Shown here piece after piece: positions 41,658-49,175 of a stretch of 64,000 nt of DNA (its first letter is position 1; the number at the start of each line of letters is the position of its first letter). The stretch is from Streptomyces sp. MMBL 11-1 (GTDB lineage Bacteria; Actinomycetota; Actinomycetes; Streptomycetales; Streptomycetaceae): positions 2,666,001-2,730,000 of the forward strand of contig NZ_CP117709.1 of the NCBI RefSeq assembly GCF_028622875.1, read 5' to 3'. A program made the translations under genes and the position numbers. The notes beneath the pieces were generated by a model, which saw only the letters and a list, made by a program, of their open reading frames with translations, ran no database searches and was not told where the DNA came from.

Positions 41658-42431
41658 TCAGCCGGCCTTCAGGGCCTTCATCACCTCGCGCGTATCGCTG
41701 ATCAGATCGGCCCGGTGGGCGAGCATCTCGGGTTGGTCCACCACATCGGGCAGCGATTTCGTTCCGGTGTCGATGTCCGGAGGAGACATCCAGGAGGTCA
41801 GGGTGAGCGTCGCGACGAAACCGCCGTCCACCACCCGCACGCGCAGGGACTCGTCCTCCAGGACCAGCAGATAGGCCAGGTCCCCGAGGTCCGGTACGCG
41901 CTCCACCCGGTCCACGCCCGTCCCGTCGACCTCCGTCAGCGTGCTGCTCGCCTCGAACTCGGGGCGCGGGTCGGTCTCCTTGTGCAACTCGGCCGTGAGG
42001 GACGCCTGATAACCGGTGGACCAGCCCGACTCCTCCTCGCCCTCCGGCGCGCGCACCACCGCCACCGCGAAGTCGACGGTGCAGCGGATGCGGTGGAGGG
42101 CGGGGTGCTCGATGCCGTCCAGTTCGGTCGCCGGTTCGGCCGCCGGCTTCCCCACCGACCGGGCGAGCGCCGTCAGCTCCACCGCCGCGCAGGAGTCGGA
42201 CTCCACGCGGTAGCCGCGCGGATCGGGCTTCCGGTCGCCGCCGATCCCGTACGCGAAGACCGCCGTCGCCCAGACCGCCGAGGCCACCAGCGCTCCGGCC
42301 GCGGCCCAGAGCAGCCGCCGCACCCGGCGGCGGCCACCTGCCGGGACCTCCTGCCCCGGGTCGAACCCGCTCACCACATCAGCGGGCTCCGGCGGCCCGG
42401 GCTCGCCCACCAACTCCGGTTCAGTGATCAC
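41658..42431 (-). CDS. Hypothetical single-pass membrane protein
   Basis: A 257-residue protein starting at GTG 42431 (MITEPELVGEPGPPEPADVV). Residues 1-35 are hydrophilic, and RVRRLLWAAAGALVASAVWATAV is a membrane helix. The rest is extracytoplasmic, with a conserved-looking opening DSCAAVELTALARSVGKP reminiscent of DUF3558-like surface proteins (Cys then LA...VGKP), and strand-rich segments FAVAVVRAPEGEEESG and SLRVRVVDGGFVATLTLTSW. No catalytic motif. It lies at the end of the minus-strand block of lipoprotein and WXG-type genes and may belong to it, although 232 bp separate it from the secreted-protein gene. Confidence 0.7.
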   Translation of the reverse strand: MITEPELVGEPGPPEPADVVSGFDPGQEVPAGGRRRVRRLLWAAAGALVASAVWATAVFAYGIGGDRKPDPRGYRVESDSCAAVELTALARSVGKPAAEPATELDGIEHPALHRIRCTVDFAVAVVRAPEGEEESGWSTGYQASLTAELHKETDPRPEFEASSTLTEVDGTGVDRVERVPDLGDLAYLLVLEDESLRVRVVDGGFVATLTLTSWMSPPDIDTGTKSLPDVVDQPEMLAHRADLISDTREVMKALKAG

Positions 42432-42663: not shown

Positions 42664-44004
42664 TCAGACGGCGTCCAGGGAGTACGTGCCCGTACCGTCC
42701 TGCCTGCCGCTGGAGAACTGGCGGACGAACTCCCCGTCCGCGTACCGGTCGTGGCCCATCATGGATCCGGTGTACTTGTTCTGCACGCCGATCTTCGAGC
42801 TGCCGGGCACGTCGCGGTAGACGTAGAACCGCTGGAGGTCGTCCTCCGCGCAGGTGGCCGTCCTCAGGACCGCCCGGTCGGTGCCCGCGTCCGGCGCGGC
42901 GATGGTCGCGCACCCGCCGTTGCCCCAGTTCCACAGGGTCGCCTCGATGACCCCGTTGCTCTCCGTGACGTTGCACAGGCGCCAGTGGTCCAGGTGGGCG
43001 CTGAAGATCGTCGAGGGCCGCAGGCGGACACCGTCGCTCGCCAGGAGCGGCGCGCCCCAGGACAGGGGCTTTCCGGGCACGGCGATCTTGTAGACCTGGG
43101 TCTGGCAGTCGAGAGCGGCCCGCGCGCTGCTCCCGGTGGACGCGGGCTGTTCGGCGGACATGCTGCTGGTACGGGCCGGAGGCTGCGCGAGGCGGTCCTG
43201 TTCCTGTTCCCGGTCCTGGTCCTGGCCGCCCTGTTCCCGGTCCTGCTTCTGCTTCTCCGTCGGTGCCACCGCGCCCGCCGGGTGCTCGGCCTTCGCGGCG
43301 GGCGAGCCACAGTCGAGCAGCCCCTGCGCCTTGGCCATGATGCTGCCCGCGGGCACCGTGTCCTGGCAGCTCACCGCGCCTTCCTCAAGGGTGGTGTAGG
43401 TGGTGAAGCTGCCGCTTCCGGGCCCCTCCGCCCACTTCAGCGCCCAGCTTCCGTCGCTCTGCTGGGAGCGGTTGCAGTTGAGGCTTCCGTAGGTGCCGGT
43501 GACCTTCTTCGTGCCCTTGTAGACGCCGTAGTAGCCGGGCTGGTTGAAGCTCCACGCAACCGTGTTCGACTCGCTGCTGGTGGAGGCGTAGTCAACCTTC
43601 ACCTCCAGACCGAGGCTCGCTTTGGCCGCTTCGAGGGTCGCGACGGCGAAACTGCCCTCGACGCCGCCGGTGAGACCGACGGATACCGTGATGACCGTCT
43701 CGGTGCTGGTGACGACGGTGTGGTTGCCGGTGGTGCCCTCGGTGACGAACCAGCCCTTGAAGTGGGTGATCGTCGGGGACACTTCGGTGTTCTTGACGTA
43801 CGGGTGGCGGGTGCCGAGGTCGGCCGCGGTGCAGGCGCCGCCGAGCTGAGGCGCCGTCGCGTTGGCGGGTGCCGTCGCGTTGGCGGGTGCGGCAACGGCC
43901 GGTGAGGCGGCGAAGCCCATGGTGGCGACCGCTACGGCGACCGCGGGGGCGGTCACTGCCGTGAATGATCTACCGGTACGGCTCCTGGATTTCCTGGGAC
44001 GCAT
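42664..44004 (-). CDS. Secreted protein with beta-rich N-terminal and trefoil-like C-terminal part
   Basis: A 446-residue protein starting MRPRKSRSRTGRSFTAVTAP, with GGGGGAAA upstream. A signal peptide ends around ASPAVA (residue 38) and a short duplicated tract (ANATAPANATAP) follows. Residues 60-230 are beta-rich (TVVTSTETVITVSVGLTGGV, TVAWSFNQPGYYGVYKGTKK), with Cys residues in pairs. A Gln/Arg/Glu/Asp-rich linker (KQKQDREQGGQDQDREQEQD) separates a C-terminal domain (CQTQVYKIAVPGKPLSWGAP ... LRTATCAEDDLQRFYVYRDV) that looks like a ricin-type or similar trefoil. No enzyme motif is visible, and I do not recognise the family. It follows the lipoprotein cluster on the same strand. Confidence 0.72.
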   Translation of the reverse strand: MRPRKSRSRTGRSFTAVTAPAVAVAVATMGFAASPAVAAPANATAPANATAPQLGGACTAADLGTRHPYVKNTEVSPTITHFKGWFVTEGTTGNHTVVTSTETVITVSVGLTGGVEGSFAVATLEAAKASLGLEVKVDYASTSSESNTVAWSFNQPGYYGVYKGTKKVTGTYGSLNCNRSQQSDGSWALKWAEGPGSGSFTTYTTLEEGAVSCQDTVPAGSIMAKAQGLLDCGSPAAKAEHPAGAVAPTEKQKQDREQGGQDQDREQEQDRLAQPPARTSSMSAEQPASTGSSARAALDCQTQVYKIAVPGKPLSWGAPLLASDGVRLRPSTIFSAHLDHWRLCNVTESNGVIEATLWNWGNGGCATIAAPDAGTDRAVLRTATCAEDDLQRFYVYRDVPGSSKIGVQNKYTGSMMGHDRYADGEFVRQFSSGRQDGTGTYSLDAV

Positions 44005-44162
44005 GGCTGTCTGTTTCCCCCTGGTCGATTCCACCCGGCCCGGTCCGGACCGGACAGAGGTGAATGTAGCGGCCACAGAGGGTGCCGGAGTGAGGCCCGA
44101 ACGAGCCAGGAATTTACGGGGAGGGGCTTATTCCTCCCCCGTCGCAGCCGCGCGTCACCGGG

Positions 44163-44834
44163 TCACACGGGGTCCAGTGACGGCCGGGCCTCCAGCCCCC
44201 CGTTGTTCTCGCAGCCCAGCTCTTTCGCCATGGCCAGCGCGACGGAGTGGGCGACGGTCGCGTAGGCGTCCTTCAACTTCTCCGGGTCACCCTCGGGTTC
44301 CTCGGGCGACCAGCGCTCCACGCCGACATCAATGTGAGCGGGCTGGGAGCCGAGCAGCTTCTTGTTTCGGCAGGCGAACTGGACGACACCGGCGTCCGGG
44401 GCGGCCAGCGCGCGTTCCCCCATCGGGAGCACCGTGAACTTCGAAGCGGGTTCGCCCTCCGGTGGGCCTCCGATCAGTTCCCAGGTGACCTCCAGCCGAT
44501 CGCTCTGGGCGGCATCGACCGCGAACACCTGGCAGATGTCCCCGTCATCGGCGGCAGGGGAAGAGAACGCCTCACTCAACAAACTGGCGGCACGTGCGAC
44601 GGTGGATCCCTCGGCCGGGGCAGCGAACCGCGAGGACCCCGTGATCATCTCCACCCCTTCTGCCGCGTCGGGCGACAGGGCGGTGCCGCCGCAGAGCTGT
44701 GCAGCCTCCACAGCCTTGTCGTTCTCCTTCGCGGCACCGCCCCCTCCACTACAGCCGACGGCTCCGAGGGCCAGTGAGCCGGCCACGGCCACGGCCAGGA
44801 GCCCATCGCGTACAGCCCTGCGGCTGATCACCAT
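44163..44834 (-). CDS. Lipoprotein A, paralogue of the next upstream gene
   Basis: A 223-residue lipoprotein starting MVISRRAVRDGLLAVAVAGS, lipobox LGAVGC with Cys28. The mature region begins EAAQLCGGTALSPDAAEGVE, then MITGSSRF, and ends HSVALAMAKELGCENNGGLE. These blocks match the neighbouring lipoprotein (EVCDEVF..., TVTGATSF, HSASLALAEKLECQDNAGLP), so the two are tandem paralogues. Conserved Cys pairs suggest disulfides. No known domain recognised. Start chosen at the ATG preceding the signal peptide. The gene is the last complete lipoprotein of the operon-like block 49175 to 44163. Confidence 0.78.
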   Translation of the reverse strand: MVISRRAVRDGLLAVAVAGSLALGAVGCSGGGGAAKENDKAVEAAQLCGGTALSPDAAEGVEMITGSSRFAAPAEGSTVARAASLLSEAFSSPAADDGDICQVFAVDAAQSDRLEVTWELIGGPPEGEPASKFTVLPMGERALAAPDAGVVQFACRNKKLLGSQPAHIDVGVERWSPEEPEGDPEKLKDAYATVAHSVALAMAKELGCENNGGLEARPSLDPV

Positions 44835-44901
44835 CTGCCGCCTCTGCCGTCGACAGCCCGATCGGCCACGCCCGTCAGCGATTCCGTCCGGTGCGACATC
44901 G

Positions 44902-45585
44902 TCAAGAGTCCGACTCCGTCTCGCGAGCAACCGGCGGAAGCTCCTTCAGATCCGGGTCCAGTTCCGCCGGGAGACCGGCGTTGTCCTGGCATTCGAGCTT
45001 TTCGGCCAACGCCAAGGACGCGGAGTGAACAACGCGAAGGTTGTCCATCAAGTTCTCCCGGGCGTCACCCCGGTCACTGGCTTTTCCCAGCCCTCCGTAG
45101 ATCCGTGCCGGGTGGTTCTTCGAACCTTCGAGCTGCGGGCTGACGCATTCAAAATAGATGCCGGCCGAGCGAACGTTGGCTACCGCTTCCTTGCCCACCG
45201 AGAACCGCTTCGTTCCTTCAGGATTCCCCGGGTAATTGACGTCCTGTGGAGCATATATATGGAAGGCCAGGGTCGTCTCTGCACCACTGCGGCCCCCCTT
45301 CGCAGCCATCTCGCAGAGCTCTTCCCTCGGCGACCAGCTGCGACCGGAGGCGTACCCCTTCTCGATCTCTTCGACGAGCTGCTCCATGCCACCACCCGCT
45401 CGCCGCTCGAAGGACGTCGCGCCCGTCACGGTCTCCAGCGTCGTCTCCAGGTCACCCGCGAACACCTCATCGCACACCTCCGCCGCGTTGACGTACGGAG
45501 ACTGAGGCTCCGGGTCCGATGAGCATGCGGTGGCGCAGACGGCCACGAGCAGGCCGACGATCAGGTTCTTTCCGTTCCGGTACAC
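44902..45585 (-). CDS. Lipoprotein B, paralogue of lipoprotein A
   Basis: A 227-residue lipoprotein, start placed at GTG 45585 (MYRNGKNLIVGLLVAVCATA, lipobox ending at Cys21); an ATG five codons upstream at 45600 is the alternative, and the AAAGGTAGAGG between them could serve as ribosome-binding site for the GTG. The mature part has AAEVCDEVFAGDLETTLETV and TGATSFERRAGGGMEQLVEE, a central AETTLAFHIYAPQDVNYPGN and the closing HSASLALAEKLECQDNAGLP shared with lipoprotein A. Function unknown. It lies 67 bp upstream of lipoprotein A and just downstream of a decayed copy fragment. Confidence 0.76.
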   Translation of the reverse strand: MYRNGKNLIVGLLVAVCATACSSDPEPQSPYVNAAEVCDEVFAGDLETTLETVTGATSFERRAGGGMEQLVEEIEKGYASGRSWSPREELCEMAAKGGRSGAETTLAFHIYAPQDVNYPGNPEGTKRFSVGKEAVANVRSAGIYFECVSPQLEGSKNHPARIYGGLGKASDRGDARENLMDNLRVVHSASLALAEKLECQDNAGLPAELDPDLKELPPVARETESDS

Positions 45586-45600
45586 ACCTCTACCTTTCAT

Positions 45601-45770
45601 CGTGCCCGGGGCGGCCGCAGCCTGTCTCCGACTTCACACCCTGCTGGTTCTCCCGGGCGATACCGTCCGGCCTCGGCGTCCTTCAGCTTCTCCGGGTCGC
45701 TTTCGGGTCCTCGGGCGACCAGCGCTTCACGCCGACGGAACAGGGCGGGACCGCCGGCCCTCACGCGGAC
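45601..45770 (-). pseudogene. Fragment of a lipoprotein A-type gene
   Basis: Positions 45680-45743 are nearly identical to the 3' part of lipoprotein A (44267-44330): both encode VGV(K/E)RWSPE and then DPEKLKDA. The copy has a one-base deletion within GAGGACCCG (versus GAGGAACCC), which puts it out of frame, and the sequence after DPEKLKDA has lost the normal helix. A weaker match to ENNGGLE remains near 45650. It has no start or signal peptide and looks like debris from an earlier third copy of the lipoprotein gene, left between lipoproteins C and B. Confidence 0.65.
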
Positions 45771-46417
45771 GGAGGCAACGCGGAGGGAATGACGGGAGAC
45801 TTCGCGCAGCCCATCTCTTCCGTCACCGAGCGGGCGAACGTGCTCAGCGTCTTCCATCGGAGTTCCGCTCCCAGGCTCTCCCCCGCCACCTCGAACTGGA
45901 GTGGCAGGTCGGACGGTTGGGAGGCAATGGCACCGGGCACAGCGCATACCGCGATCAACTGCATACGGGACGGCCCGGGTTCCGGTGCCACGAACACCGA
46001 TTCGTTCGCCCGCCGCCAGGTACGGCTGTTCTCCGGGCTGTCCATCATCCCCAGGGAGAGGACAGACCACTTCACCGACGCATCAACAGTGCCGCTGGTC
46101 TGATCGCCTTCGAACATGTCCATGCGACAGCCGGTGTAGCCGGTGTGCTGCAGATCCGACTGCTGCCATTTCTTCGCCTCTGCCACGAGGCTCTTCGCCA
46201 AGACATCCGCCTGAGGCGTCCCGGCCACCTCGACATCACCGCCACCGGCCGACTCGACCGCCGCGTCCACGTTGCCGGCACCGAGCAACGACTTGCACTG
46301 TTTCAGCTTCGGTGACTCCGCCCGCTCCTCTCCCCCGGAGCAGCCCGAGAGAAGACCAGCTACGGTCAGAGCGACGACAGCCGTCATCCAGTTCCTGTGA
46401 TGACGCAGTATCGTCAC
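45761..46417 (-). CDS. Lipoprotein C, translationally coupled to the WXG-like gene
   Basis: A 218-residue lipoprotein starting at GTG 46417 (MTILRHHRNWMTAVVALTVA), lipobox LLSGC with Cys26. Its GTG overlaps the stop of the 772-residue gene as GTGA. The mature part opens SPKLKQCKSLLGAGNVDAAV, has SDLQHTGYTGCRMDMFEGD, and ends STFARSVTEEMGCAKSPVIP. The overall plan (Cys near the start, central strands, C-terminal helix with Cys) resembles lipoproteins A and B, but direct identity is low. It should be made together with the WXG-like protein; a surface partner or protective role is possible (inference). Confidence 0.78.
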   Translation of the reverse strand: MTILRHHRNWMTAVVALTVAGLLSGCSGGEERAESPKLKQCKSLLGAGNVDAAVESAGGGDVEVAGTPQADVLAKSLVAEAKKWQQSDLQHTGYTGCRMDMFEGDQTSGTVDASVKWSVLSLGMMDSPENSRTWRRANESVFVAPEPGPSRMQLIAVCAVPGAIASQPSDLPLQFEVAGESLGAELRWKTLSTFARSVTEEMGCAKSPVIPSALPPSA

Positions 46418-48732
46418 TTAACCCTCCCCTGGTCACCGGCCGCCGTCTTGCCGTTCCCGTAATAGGTCTCGATGTCCAGGGCAAGCTGTCGCTTCTCGTC
46501 AGCCGAGAGCCCGACTTCATCCGCATAGTTCAGCAGGGGCGTCACTGCGCCACGCTCCCCTTCGGCCTTGAACTTGTCGATGCCTGTCAACGCATCGTCG
46601 TTGTTGTCGTACTCGCGCTGCTTCAGATAGTCCATCGTCTCGCCGGCGTACCCCGTATCGATGGCCGCGGTCGCCGTATCCATGACGAGGGGAACCGCCG
46701 TAGCAGCCACGACGCCCGCAGCGGGACCCAGAACCACCGCCGTACCGACCCCCACGACAGCGCCCACACCAGAACTGACGCCGAACTTCCGCCACTCGGC
46801 TTCCTTCTCCATCTCCAGGATCTTGGCTTCTTCCTCACCCTTGAACTGCTGATGGATGCCGTCGATGCGCGCCTCGTCGAGAATTCCGTGCACCTTTGCG
46901 CCGCCGTATCCGAAGTGCAGCCCTAGTTCCTTCTCCTCGGCTCCAAAGGCCTTCAGTCCGCTTGCCTCGTACATCTGCTGCGCCGACGACAACGACCTCC
47001 AGCCCTCCTCATCGGCTGCCACGACGCCCATGAACCTGCGCGCAGCCGCCTCGCCGAAGTCGGTCCGCTCGGAGCCGTCACTGCTGTTCGCGAACAACTT
47101 GTCGCGCCCGAGTTCGTCACCCGCCGACCCGAAGTTGTACGTGGAGTAGTTCAGGTCGTCGATGTACGCGGCCCCCATGCGCCCCAAATTGTCCTTCAGC
47201 GCTTCGTGCCGGCTGAGCAGGCCCGAATCCGATCCGTAGCTGTCGATGACGTTCTTCATGATGCCCGCCGTCACCTCGTCCCGCTTGAGCGTGGGCGAGG
47301 GGTCGTCCCAGGCGTGCCCGGTGGTCGCCGCCTCCAACGCCTTCCCGAGCGCGTCGGGCATGTACTGCATGGACTTCTTCGCGTCATCGGGGTCGTGACC
47401 CGTGATGTCGTAGAAGGGCTCGTAGTCCTCGTTCTGGAAGAAGTCCAGATAACTGGTGATCGCCTGCCCGTCCTTGTCCTTGCCCAGGTCCGCGTCACCG
47501 CTCTTCGGGGTGCCGTCCTCGTTGTAGGCGGTGGGCTCGGCGGAGAAGAACTGCTTCGCGGCTTCCGGGCTGTGCCCCAAGGCCTCCATCATGCTGGTCA
47601 CCGGGTCGTAGCCGGAGCCATTGACACCCGAAGGGTTGAACGGGTTCTCCGGCCCGCCAGGCATGCCCTTCGACCCGTAGAAGAAGTCGTGGTCCTTCTG
47701 CCTCAACTGGACCACGTGCTCGGCAATCGGGTTGAGGAACTGTGCGTCGTATTTCCCGTACCGCATGATGCCGCCGAGCAGCTGGTAGCCGTACGGTCCG
47801 CCGCTGTTGTCGTACTTGGACAGCGGGATCTGCTGGGTCCCCAGCTTGCGGAGCTCCGGCCCCCACTCCGCCGTGAACGCCTTGTCGTGCGACGCGGTGG
47901 CGAGGTTCAGGCCGAGGTTGCGCTGGAGTTCCTGCACGTCCGCCAGGCGGGTCTTGTCGACCTTGGCGTAGTCGTGCGTGTCCGTGGCCAGCTGGCCGAA
48001 GAAGGCGAGGGACTTCTCCGGGCCGAGCTTCTCGTAGAAGGCCTTCGCGAACTCCGGCGACTTTCCGTTGTCGCGCAGCAGCTCGTTGAGCGACTGGAGT
48101 TCGGTGTGGGTGAGGTCGCGGCCCTTGGCGGCCAGCGCGGCGGCCCGCCCCGCCTCCTCCTGGTCGAACTTCGTGTACTTGGGGGCGCTGAAGTCCTTGC
48201 GGTCGGTGACGTTGGCCTCAAGGGAGTTCTTGAAGGTCACATCGGTGTCGTTGCAGTTGTCGACGATGAGGTCGATCCGCCGCTGCCACGACTCGATGTT
48301 CTCCCTCTCCTGCTGGAGGTACTTGCTGAAGTCGGGGTCGTGGCGGGCCGCGTTGTTCTCGGAGATCGGAGAACGCGCCCTCGCCTTGCCCCTGCCGTCC
48401 ACCTTGATGCCGGCCGCCGGCCCTTCGTGGTCCCGGATGTTGACCAGGTCGTCCTTGGCCTTCTTGAAGGCCGTGTAGCCCTCTTCCAGCAGCGTCTTGA
48501 CGCCCTTGGCCTCGGCGGCGGCGTCCGCGAACTCCTTGGCGGTCTTGCCTATGAACTCCCGGGTGACCCCGGCGTTGAGGCCCTCCCAGCTCGCCTTGCT
48601 CGCTTTCGCCTTCATCCCGTCGCGGGCCTGGGTGGCGAGCCTGTCGAGATTGGCCGCCATTTCCGACCAGTCGTCGGCCGCGGCCTTCAGCTTTCCCAAC
48701 GGGGCTTCGACGATGTCCTCGTAACTCAGCAT
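46414..48732 (-). CDS. Large WXG-like protein, DUF6571-type
   Basis: A 772-residue protein starting MLSYEDIVEAPLGKLKAAAD. Residues 1-100 form a helical hairpin with a W-E-G turn at 49-51 (KASWEGLNAGV), like WXG100 proteins exported by type VII systems. The middle is helical and acidic, with SLNELLRDNGKSPEFAKAFY, GGPYGYQLLGGIMRYGKYDA and NPSGVNGSGYDPVTSMMEAL. Around residues 652-692 there is a hydrophobic, Gly/Ala-rich stretch (VGAVVGVGTAVVLGPAAGVV), followed by a charged C-terminal helix. The pattern matches what I recall of DUF6571 proteins in Streptomyces. No nuclease or other catalytic motif is seen. It is preceded by a 140-residue partner (20 bp gap) and overlaps lipoprotein C. Export by an ESX-type system is plausible but unproven. 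Confidence 0.78.
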   Translation of the reverse strand: MLSYEDIVEAPLGKLKAAADDWSEMAANLDRLATQARDGMKAKASKASWEGLNAGVTREFIGKTAKEFADAAAEAKGVKTLLEEGYTAFKKAKDDLVNIRDHEGPAAGIKVDGRGKARARSPISENNAARHDPDFSKYLQQERENIESWQRRIDLIVDNCNDTDVTFKNSLEANVTDRKDFSAPKYTKFDQEEAGRAAALAAKGRDLTHTELQSLNELLRDNGKSPEFAKAFYEKLGPEKSLAFFGQLATDTHDYAKVDKTRLADVQELQRNLGLNLATASHDKAFTAEWGPELRKLGTQQIPLSKYDNSGGPYGYQLLGGIMRYGKYDAQFLNPIAEHVVQLRQKDHDFFYGSKGMPGGPENPFNPSGVNGSGYDPVTSMMEALGHSPEAAKQFFSAEPTAYNEDGTPKSGDADLGKDKDGQAITSYLDFFQNEDYEPFYDITGHDPDDAKKSMQYMPDALGKALEAATTGHAWDDPSPTLKRDEVTAGIMKNVIDSYGSDSGLLSRHEALKDNLGRMGAAYIDDLNYSTYNFGSAGDELGRDKLFANSSDGSERTDFGEAAARRFMGVVAADEEGWRSLSSAQQMYEASGLKAFGAEEKELGLHFGYGGAKVHGILDEARIDGIHQQFKGEEEAKILEMEKEAEWRKFGVSSGVGAVVGVGTAVVLGPAAGVVAATAVPLVMDTATAAIDTGYAGETMDYLKQREYDNNDDALTGIDKFKAEGERGAVTPLLNYADEVGLSADEKRQLALDIETYYGNGKTAAGDQGRVK

Positions 48733-48752
48733 TGCGCGTGCTCCCCCGAGCC

Positions 48753-49175
48753 CTACTTCATGTATTCCGAAAGCACGGAGACCGATGTCAGGTCCCCGCC
48801 GATCTTCACGTCGTCCTTGGCGTGCTGGGCCTTGGTGTAGTCAAGGTGGTTCGAGATGTGCGCACAGGAATCCAGCAGCGTCCTGAGGTGGGTCTGCCAG
48901 AAGTCGTGCACCTTGAGCACCGCCGAACCGCTCGCGAAGTTGCCGTTGGTGAGCGCGGTCGCCGCTTCGAAGGTGGCAGGACGGGCGTGATCACCGTCCT
49001 TCGAGAGCTTCGTCCTCAGCTCGTAGGCGTCATTCCCGATAGCGCCCAGATCATCCCGGTTCACCACCAGATCGGAACTGCCACCGCCCCCTGCGGCCGG
49101 AGCGCTGTTGAGCTGCATGGCACTTCGTTCTGCCGCTGCCGCGCGCAGTTCGGCCCATTCCTTCTCGAACGTCAC
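48753..49175 (-). CDS. Small helical protein, probable partner of the WXG-like protein
   Basis: A 140-residue protein starting MTFEKEWAELRAAAAERSAM. The first 25 residues and residues 60-125 are predicted helical (DLGAIGNDAYELRTKLSKDG, AVLKVHDFWQTHLRTLLDSC), separated by a Gly/Ser linker (AAGGGGSSD). The pattern of an N-terminal helix pair, a conserved Trp and a C-terminal helix ending TSVSVLSEYMK is like small ESX-type or WXG-related proteins. It ends 20 bp before the large WXG-like gene, on the same strand, so they are likely co-translated and may form a complex, as EsxA/EsxB do. Function unknown. Confidence 0.72.
   Translation of the reverse strand: MTFEKEWAELRAAAAERSAMQLNSAPAAGGGGSSDLVVNRDDLGAIGNDAYELRTKLSKDGDHARPATFEAATALTNGNFASGSAVLKVHDFWQTHLRTLLDSCAHISNHLDYTKAQHAKDDVKIGGDLTSVSVLSEYMK

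Follow-up and report, generated by a model that had tools for sequence, protein, structure and literature searches.

Layout of the locus

The sequence analysed here (the window) is a stretch of 64,000 nucleotides from the 8.5 Mb genome of Streptomyces sp. MMBL 11-1 (contig 1, positions 2666001-2730000). It contains a row of five open reading frames (ORFs) on the minus strand, encoding a 140-residue protein, a 772-residue protein and three lipoproteins (LipC, LipB and LipA), which we propose to be a polymorphic toxin-immunity locus. An initial annotation made from the sequence alone had described this row, and an ORF check of the window found all five genes where it had put them, with 20 bp between the genes for the 140-residue and 772-residue proteins and a GTGA overlap between the latter gene and lipC. 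The features are as follows.

48753..49175, minus strand: 140-residue partner protein; some relatives are named 'AG1 protein' in databases
46414..48732, minus strand: 772-residue WXG-fronted protein, proposed polymorphic toxin; some relatives are named 'AG2 protein' or 'DUF6571 family'
48580..48588, minus strand: W49-E-G51 turn of the WXG-type front domain, from residue conservation
46417..47148, minus strand: C-terminal tip of type CT1 (approximately residues 529-772), proposed toxin domain, delimited by the end of the DNA alignment to loci L059 and L109
46663..46785, minus strand: Gly/Ala-rich hydrophobic stretch (approximately residues 650-690), proposed membrane-inserting part, from the hydropathy peak
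45761..46417, minus strand: LipC (class LIP1, GTGA overlap), proposed cognate immunity lipoprotein of the CT1 tip
45675..45736, minus strand: remnant of a further lipoprotein gene, similar to the 3' part of lipA, from a DNA match to lipA
44902..45600, minus strand: LipB, proposed orphan immunity against a CT0 tip, from a DNA match to the L059 lipoprotein
44163..44834, minus strand: LipA, of the same class as LipB (LIP0, five conserved cysteines), proposed orphan immunity

The W-E-G turn and the hydrophobic stretch that the initial annotation pointed out in the 772-residue protein are both present. A codon-usage gene caller also calls all five genes, with somewhat later starts for LipB and LipC; for LipA, a start at 44834 is more likely than the one at 44930, where the longest ORF begins. 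A lipobox was detected in all three lipoproteins.

The large protein and its relatives

Relatives of the 772-residue protein are found in 177 of the 295 sampled genomes of the genus (E <= 1e-20), and the 49 named loci with the large protein all belong to Streptomyces or [Kitasatospora] papulosa. A class-wide profile search gave matches in 52 of 394 genomes, 33 of them from the same genus, where most of the matches are long, and 19 from outside it, where most lie in a DUF6571-like middle region (in one genome, in the front alone). Two to three candidates were scored per genome in the genus-wide and class-wide searches, so that copy numbers are lower bounds. The main set used below comprises 104 distinct large genes (>700 residues, the window gene included, identical proteins counted once); genes of 700 residues or fewer or with E > 1e-15 were excluded (e.g. 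L149, L152, L153, L113_12, L147_1 and L147_6). The 58 regions from other genomes were hand-picked from the homologue list, best matches first and then a distant spread; 20 front-only regions and 12 regions from outside the genus were likewise hand-picked from search lists.

The tryptophan at position 49 is kept in 104/104 genes and the glycine at position 51 in 102/104, in keeping with the description of the large protein as WXG-type. Pfam, NCBIfam and PADLOC gave nothing above cut-off for the window proteins, the 772-residue and 140-residue proteins included; the relatives partly match DUF6571, PPE and WXG100. Among 18 family members, three match PPE (best 5.6e-5) and one matches WXG100 (4.8e-4), the position of the match not being shown, and in two relatives, L178 and L203, the front has a match to TIGR03930 (WXG100) that stays under the cut-off (residues 9-91 in one and 11-90 in the other). 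DUF6571 (PF20211), labelled in Pfam as a family of unknown function, has no match at E <= 1 in the 772-residue protein itself. Its close relatives P0007 and P0013 match over residues 159-291 with E values of 1.2e-05 and 6e-06 (24.5 and 25.5 bits against a cut-off of 27). The family is matched by four of the 18 members (best 1.4e-9), and better by more distant ones (best 1.3e-20).

The lipoprotein class follows the tip

At 40% identity the C-terminal tips of the 104 large proteins fall into 11 clusters (59, 17, 8, 5, 4, 4 and 3 members and four singles), which give the CT numbers used here; the analysis of 60 pairs below was numbered otherwise. In 53 of 67 such genes, counting that of the window, the start of a lipoprotein ORF is no more than 100 nt downstream; the same holds for four of 289 controls, which were other genes encoding >300 residues at the same loci (p = 4.8e-45). 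The association of the large protein with lipoproteins, on which the initial annotation hinged, is thus consistent in other genomes. With a strict lipobox, a lipoprotein ORF lies within 160 nt downstream in 91/104.

The kind of lipoprotein goes with the kind of tip. With self hits left out, which leaves six of the 104 genes without a scorable lipoprotein match, 96 of the 98 scorable genes have a lipoprotein of the tip's class as the first one downstream; the two mismatches are L037 and the single-member L045. All 17 CT1 genes have a LIP1 lipoprotein first downstream, also when self hits are left out. The 37 later-added named loci, which are non-identical to the class-defining loci but include close relatives of them, are all class-matched (29 CT0, 3 CT1 and 5 CT2), and phylogenetically independent pairs on the tree agree in 10/10 cases (p = 0.002). 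Among 60 tip-lipoprotein pairs each lipoprotein cluster is confined to one tip cluster. A partial Mantel analysis of these pairs gave a tip-lipoprotein correlation of 0.72 given the front (0/999 permutations) and a front-lipoprotein correlation of 0.05 given the tip (179/999). From this pattern we propose LipC as the immunity protein cognate to the CT1 tip.

The lipoproteins themselves are diverse. In an alignment of 62 mature lipoproteins five cysteines are invariant and little more is conserved, and exactly five cysteines are present in the mature part of all 91 strict-lipobox lipoproteins (under a relaxed lipobox definition, six are counted in one member of the CT0 set). As one of the five is the lipid-anchored residue, two disulfides are likely. 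The initial annotation had called LipB and LipA paralogous; they do share a class and the five aligned cysteines, yet are only 22% identical, while LipC is 11% identical to LipB and 16% to LipA. Within CT0 the mean identity is 0.36 for the lipoproteins, 0.65 for the tips and 0.67 for the fronts. Faster divergence of the lipoproteins is as expected in an arms race; relaxed constraint would look alike. A 'DUF3558' label on the LipC relative P0160 was rejected, since none of 26 LipC-type proteins, P0160 included, matches DUF3558. No solved structure matches LipC by sequence at E <= 1. The analysis predicts a family of surface immunity lipoproteins whose members in the window Pfam and NCBIfam do not recognise.

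Tip exchange and orphan lipoproteins

A quick tree built from the fronts (first 300 residues, 104 genes) requires no fewer than 22 changes of tip type, and many relatives with a near-identical front lose their identity to the window protein in the second half. L059, which carries a CT0 tip, is 92% identical to the window protein over residues 1-110, 96% over 111-300 and 64% over 301-500; over 501-772 the range is 17-32%, with 29% over 501-640 and 17% over 701-772. L058 has the opposite trend, with a front that is 55-57% identical and 58-68% identity over residues 501-700. The family has a constant front with independently exchanged C-terminal tips, as expected of a polymorphic toxin.

The exchange can be followed in the DNA. 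The window and L059 share one 91.4% alignment that runs from 52000 to 47148 and ends inside the gene at codon ~528. Identity resumes at lipB (45652-44913), with 86% to L059's own lipoprotein, and again at 44327-44146 and 42515-39792. In Streptomyces griseus NCTC13033 (L109) the alignment likewise ends at 47148, and lipB is matched at 80%. LipA also belongs to class LIP0 (tblastn, 57% identity), so that LipB and LipA are both of the CT0 class; the only other match to LipB in its own genome is LipA, at 27%. A query of 280 residues of L059 finds no CT0 tip in the own genome, the only hit being the window's own tip (32%), and the CT0-class LipB and LipA are therefore without a cognate here. The simplest reading of these breaks is that CT1 and LipC replaced a CT0 tip and that the old immunity gene stayed, and we propose that LipB and LipA are orphan immunity genes against the CT0 tip of related strains. 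The gap between lipC and lipB holds a stretch (45675-45736), overlooked in the initial annotation, that matches the 3' part of lipA (57/63 aligned bases identical, E = 1e-20); to judge from this match, it is a sign of lipoprotein gene gain and loss in the array.

Similar mixtures occur elsewhere. Lipoprotein genes of the opposite class, or pieces of them, are present at six of the 17 CT1 loci (window included) and at four of the 59 CT0 loci (mostly fragments). In L055 a complete CT1 gene is followed by a free-standing CT0 tip beside a lipoprotein of the CT0 class (LIP0); free-standing tips occur in L143 and L033 as well, with a class-matched lipoprotein behind each.

The layout recurs beyond these genes. 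Of 17 fetched Streptomyces genes that have the front and lack the middle domain, 13 have one common unrelated C-terminal domain, which is a candidate second toxin class. A lipobox-bearing ORF lies behind all 13 and behind none of the other four, although in L182 and L184 this ORF perhaps has a membrane segment in place of the lipobox; three cysteines are found in 11 of the 13 ORFs. The 13 genes are L174-L177, L179-L182, L184-L187 and L193, and their C-terminal domain reads '...DRYNWD...'. Among them L174 and L182 have no NCBIfam match and L174 no Pfam match. In L178 and L183 no lipoprotein follows. Outside the genus, a lipoprotein ORF follows eight of the 12 fetched middle-domain proteins, and six of these eight have a same-strand gene of 95-116 residues before them. 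L203, also from outside the genus (alignment A5, identified by its sequence), has a front that resembles that of the window protein and an Abhydrolase_8 match (E = 2.8e-34).

The 140-residue partner and the proposed export route

A same-strand gene of 80-200 residues lies directly upstream in 99/104 cases, and 97 of these genes are homologous to that of the 140-residue protein. Variation in the partner parallels that in residues 1-110 of the large protein (partial rank r of 0.85 given the tip, 0/499 permutations) and not that in the tip given the front (-0.06, 404/499). The small partner named by the initial annotation is hence co-inherited with the large protein and follows its front, and the 140-residue protein is a probable co-export partner. 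In Pfam the best match of the partner family is at E = 0.042 (22 members searched), and no solved structure matches the partner by sequence at E <= 1.

The own genome has four EccC_a (ESX ATPase) and four EccD genes over cut-off and just three WXG100 proteins over cut-off, so that divergent small substrates may serve some of the ESX loci. The N-termini of the large proteins are not strongly hydrophobic, which makes Sec export unlikely. The W-x-G signature (102/104), the weak WXG100 and PPE matches and the four ESX ATPase genes point to type VII export. The lipobox places the matched lipoproteins outside the cell.

Proposed function

We consider it likely that the locus is a polymorphic toxin-immunity system, in which an exported toxin with a swappable tip is paired with protective surface lipoproteins. 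The 140-residue protein and the WXG-type front would pair as helical proteins for export through an ESX machine (type VIIa secretion system, T7SSa), and the middle region would carry the swappable C-terminal tip, which would act from outside on the membrane of neighbouring cells. The Gly/Ala-rich helical segment would probably insert and depolarise this membrane. The lipoprotein encoded directly downstream would sit on the outer face of the producer membrane and block its own tip type: LipC would guard against CT1, and LipB and LipA, kept after tip replacement, against the CT0 tips of related strains. To judge from the sequences, the toxin is most likely to be used by Streptomyces strains against close relatives.

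The hydrophobic stretch suggests, by analogy with staphylococcal TspA or EsxX, a membrane-active tip. In CT1 the hydropathy peak (21-residue Kyte-Doolittle mean) reaches 2.0 at residues 656-676. A comparable stretch is found in CT0, CT3 and CT4, which with CT1 account for 85 of the 104 genes, and is weaker or lacking elsewhere. A glycine-zipper pattern occurs near the peak in 15/17 CT1 and 43/59 CT0 tips; having no control set, this pattern is weak evidence. An enzymatic tip was considered and no family matched.

Several observations weigh against the proposed system. In the 772-residue protein neither Pfam nor NCBIfam recognises a toxin family, a sequence search against solved structures gave one chance-level match (E = 0.097) and WXG100 is not found over threshold (WXG100_2, E = 0.97). 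The window has no EccC or EccD match, and the usual ESX export signal is mostly missing: the motif [YF]xxx[DE] is present in the last 45 residues of only six of 99 partners, and YxxxD/E at residues 79-125 in only five of 104 fronts. The change from front to tip in L059 is not sharp and has two steps, identity falling to ~40-72% from about residue 325 and to ~8-32% after residue 525. The mean hydropathy peaks of CT2, CT9 and CT10 are <= 1.0; as these tips lack a strong stretch, one membrane mechanism cannot cover all tips and those must work otherwise. Four of the 104 genes (L035, L048, L050 and L089) have no lipoprotein match and L037 has only a weak off-class one. The search for the matching tip of the extra lipoproteins covered the own genome only. 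Within CT0 (57) the coupling of the lipoprotein to the tip is weak at 0.14 (0/499), that to the front being 0.00 (213/499); within CT1 (15) the front is no more weakly coupled to the lipoprotein than the tip is (0.48 and 0.41, respectively, both 0/499). The tip and lipoprotein genes are adjacent, and part of their association could thus be plain linkage.

If linkage were the whole explanation, the tip and the next gene would recombine as a block and the lipoprotein would be functionally unrelated to the tip. The adjoining or overlapping genes fit this, as does the partner gene, which on the other side likewise tracks the adjoining front, and so does the near-equal tracking of front and tip within CT1. 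It does not account for a lipoprotein directly behind 53 of 67 large genes against four of 289 controls, nor for the recurrence of the layout with the unrelated C-terminal domain (13/13 fetched) and outside the genus (8/12 middle-domain proteins), and we regard it as quite improbable. The lipoproteins might instead be anchors or receptors, each fitted to one tip, by which the producer keeps the exported protein on its own surface, for adhesion or development. Such a complex would give tip-specific lipoproteins as well, and a title cited in PMC8401907 ties EsxA/EsxB of Streptomyces coelicolor to sporulation; it is nevertheless unlikely, as it leaves unexplained the presence of LipB and LipA, lipoproteins for an absent tip, the separate tips with their own lipoproteins in L055, L033 and L143, and the faster divergence of lipoproteins than of tips (0.36 versus 0.65). 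The initial annotation had offered either an exported surface complex or an effector with membrane-anchored partners, and of these the effector, as a toxin with its immunity proteins, is now favoured over the surface complex.

Mycobacterial WXG effectors act on hosts, and on this precedent the protein could be an effector directed at fungi, protozoa or plants, the lipoproteins serving for self-protection only. We think this highly improbable, because exchange of tips among close relatives, together with genes resembling immunity genes against the tip of a different strain, agrees with competition between strains. An anti-phage role was also considered and found no support (PADLOC gave nothing above cut-off for the window proteins). 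The antibacterial role that was at first called speculative is thus favoured, on sequence grounds, by the tip swapping, the tip-matched lipoproteins, the orphan lipoproteins and the orphan tips.

The cargo and purpose of ESX export in Streptomyces are poorly understood. A wider reading, which we advance tentatively and as nearly an even call, is that the T7SSa/ESX of Streptomyces is a strain-against-strain weapon. It would use a common WXG front with at least 11 tip clusters, four of which (85/104 genes) would be membrane-active from outside, met by fast-evolving five-cysteine surface lipoproteins; a related layout (a DUF6571-like protein and then a lipoprotein, often with a gene of 95-116 residues before them) is found in no fewer than two further families of the class. 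What the locus predicts, down to the individual tips and lipoproteins, is that a leading genus of antibiotic producers uses T7SSa against other bacteria and for kin discrimination, by means of proteins that at present carry only the names hypothetical, 'AG1' or 'AG2'.

Comparison with known systems

Displaced orphan modules are known from contact-dependent inhibition (CDI) and Rhs systems, which differ from the present locus in using other export systems, in being Gram-negative and in having mostly cytoplasmic targets. What they have in common with it is a C-terminal tip that is polymorphic and accompanied by its cognate immunity gene (PMC3150448).

The closest likenesses are to type VII secretion system (T7SS) toxins of Bacillota. 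TspA of Staphylococcus aureus is a T7SS substrate with a helical front and a polymorphic, membrane-depolarising C-terminus that acts from outside, with several immunity genes at a locus encoded away from the core locus; TsaI, however, is membrane-bound and not a lipoprotein, and the front is of the LXG type (PMC7456083; the likeness is one of description). EsxX has a depolarising tip with a glycine zipper and separate protection at the outer face (ExiAB/ExiCD), and its immunity genes are also found in islands of toxin-free strains; its outer protection consists of polytopic membrane proteins, alongside a cytoplasmic pair, and the word lipoprotein is absent from the text (PMC12744356). TslA/TilA combines a T7SS antibacterial effector with small helical partners, lipoprotein immunity and a variable number of tilA homologues, but its lipase is N-terminal, so that the domain order is reversed, and TilA is a DUF576 protein (PMC10730906). 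By analogy, TilA is a precedent for a lipoprotein as an immunity protein (PMC10730906). Recombination among tandem immunity genes is described for esaG and tipC (PMC9484751).

T7SS-linked toxins in Streptomyces are not a new idea: WXG-fronted polymorphic toxins have been listed for actinobacteria (PMC3482391), and Streptomyces alarmone synthetases occur beside T7SS genes and putative immunity genes (PMC12691689). PMC11217815 does not mention Streptomyces. No description of the locus was found in literature on DUF6571, AG1/AG2 proteins, Streptomyces type VII toxins and T7SSa immunity, a search whose scope left most subscription papers outside. The sequence comparison points to a polymorphic toxin-immunity system in Streptomyces, probably of the T7SS type, whose five-cysteine lipoproteins are matched to the tips.

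Neighbouring genes and further copies

Three molybdopterin oxidase subunits are encoded upstream of the cluster; on the downstream side lie a 470-residue protein, a 257-residue protein and a major facilitator superfamily (MFS) transporter. The 470-residue protein (42664-44076, minus strand) has a hydrophobic N-terminal segment and no Pfam match; by eye, we take its first half to be beta-rich and pore-former-like and its end to be ricin-like. Genes of 416-437 residues come after the locus in L107, L109 and L141. The 257-residue protein (41658-42431, minus strand) has one predicted membrane segment, two cysteines and no Pfam match, and may be a relative of the lipoproteins that is anchored by its membrane segment; genes of 253-258 residues lie downstream of the loci in many relatives.

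The own genome has a second copy of the large gene (L051, C1:3110069-3112243) with a CT10 tip, followed by two related lipoproteins, the second with an 86% match to the first. A third copy of the front (C1:4493891-4494430; L003, L052) lies in an open frame of 502 residues; by eye it has its own upstream gene of partner size and a partly hydrophobic C-terminus, like L178 and L183.

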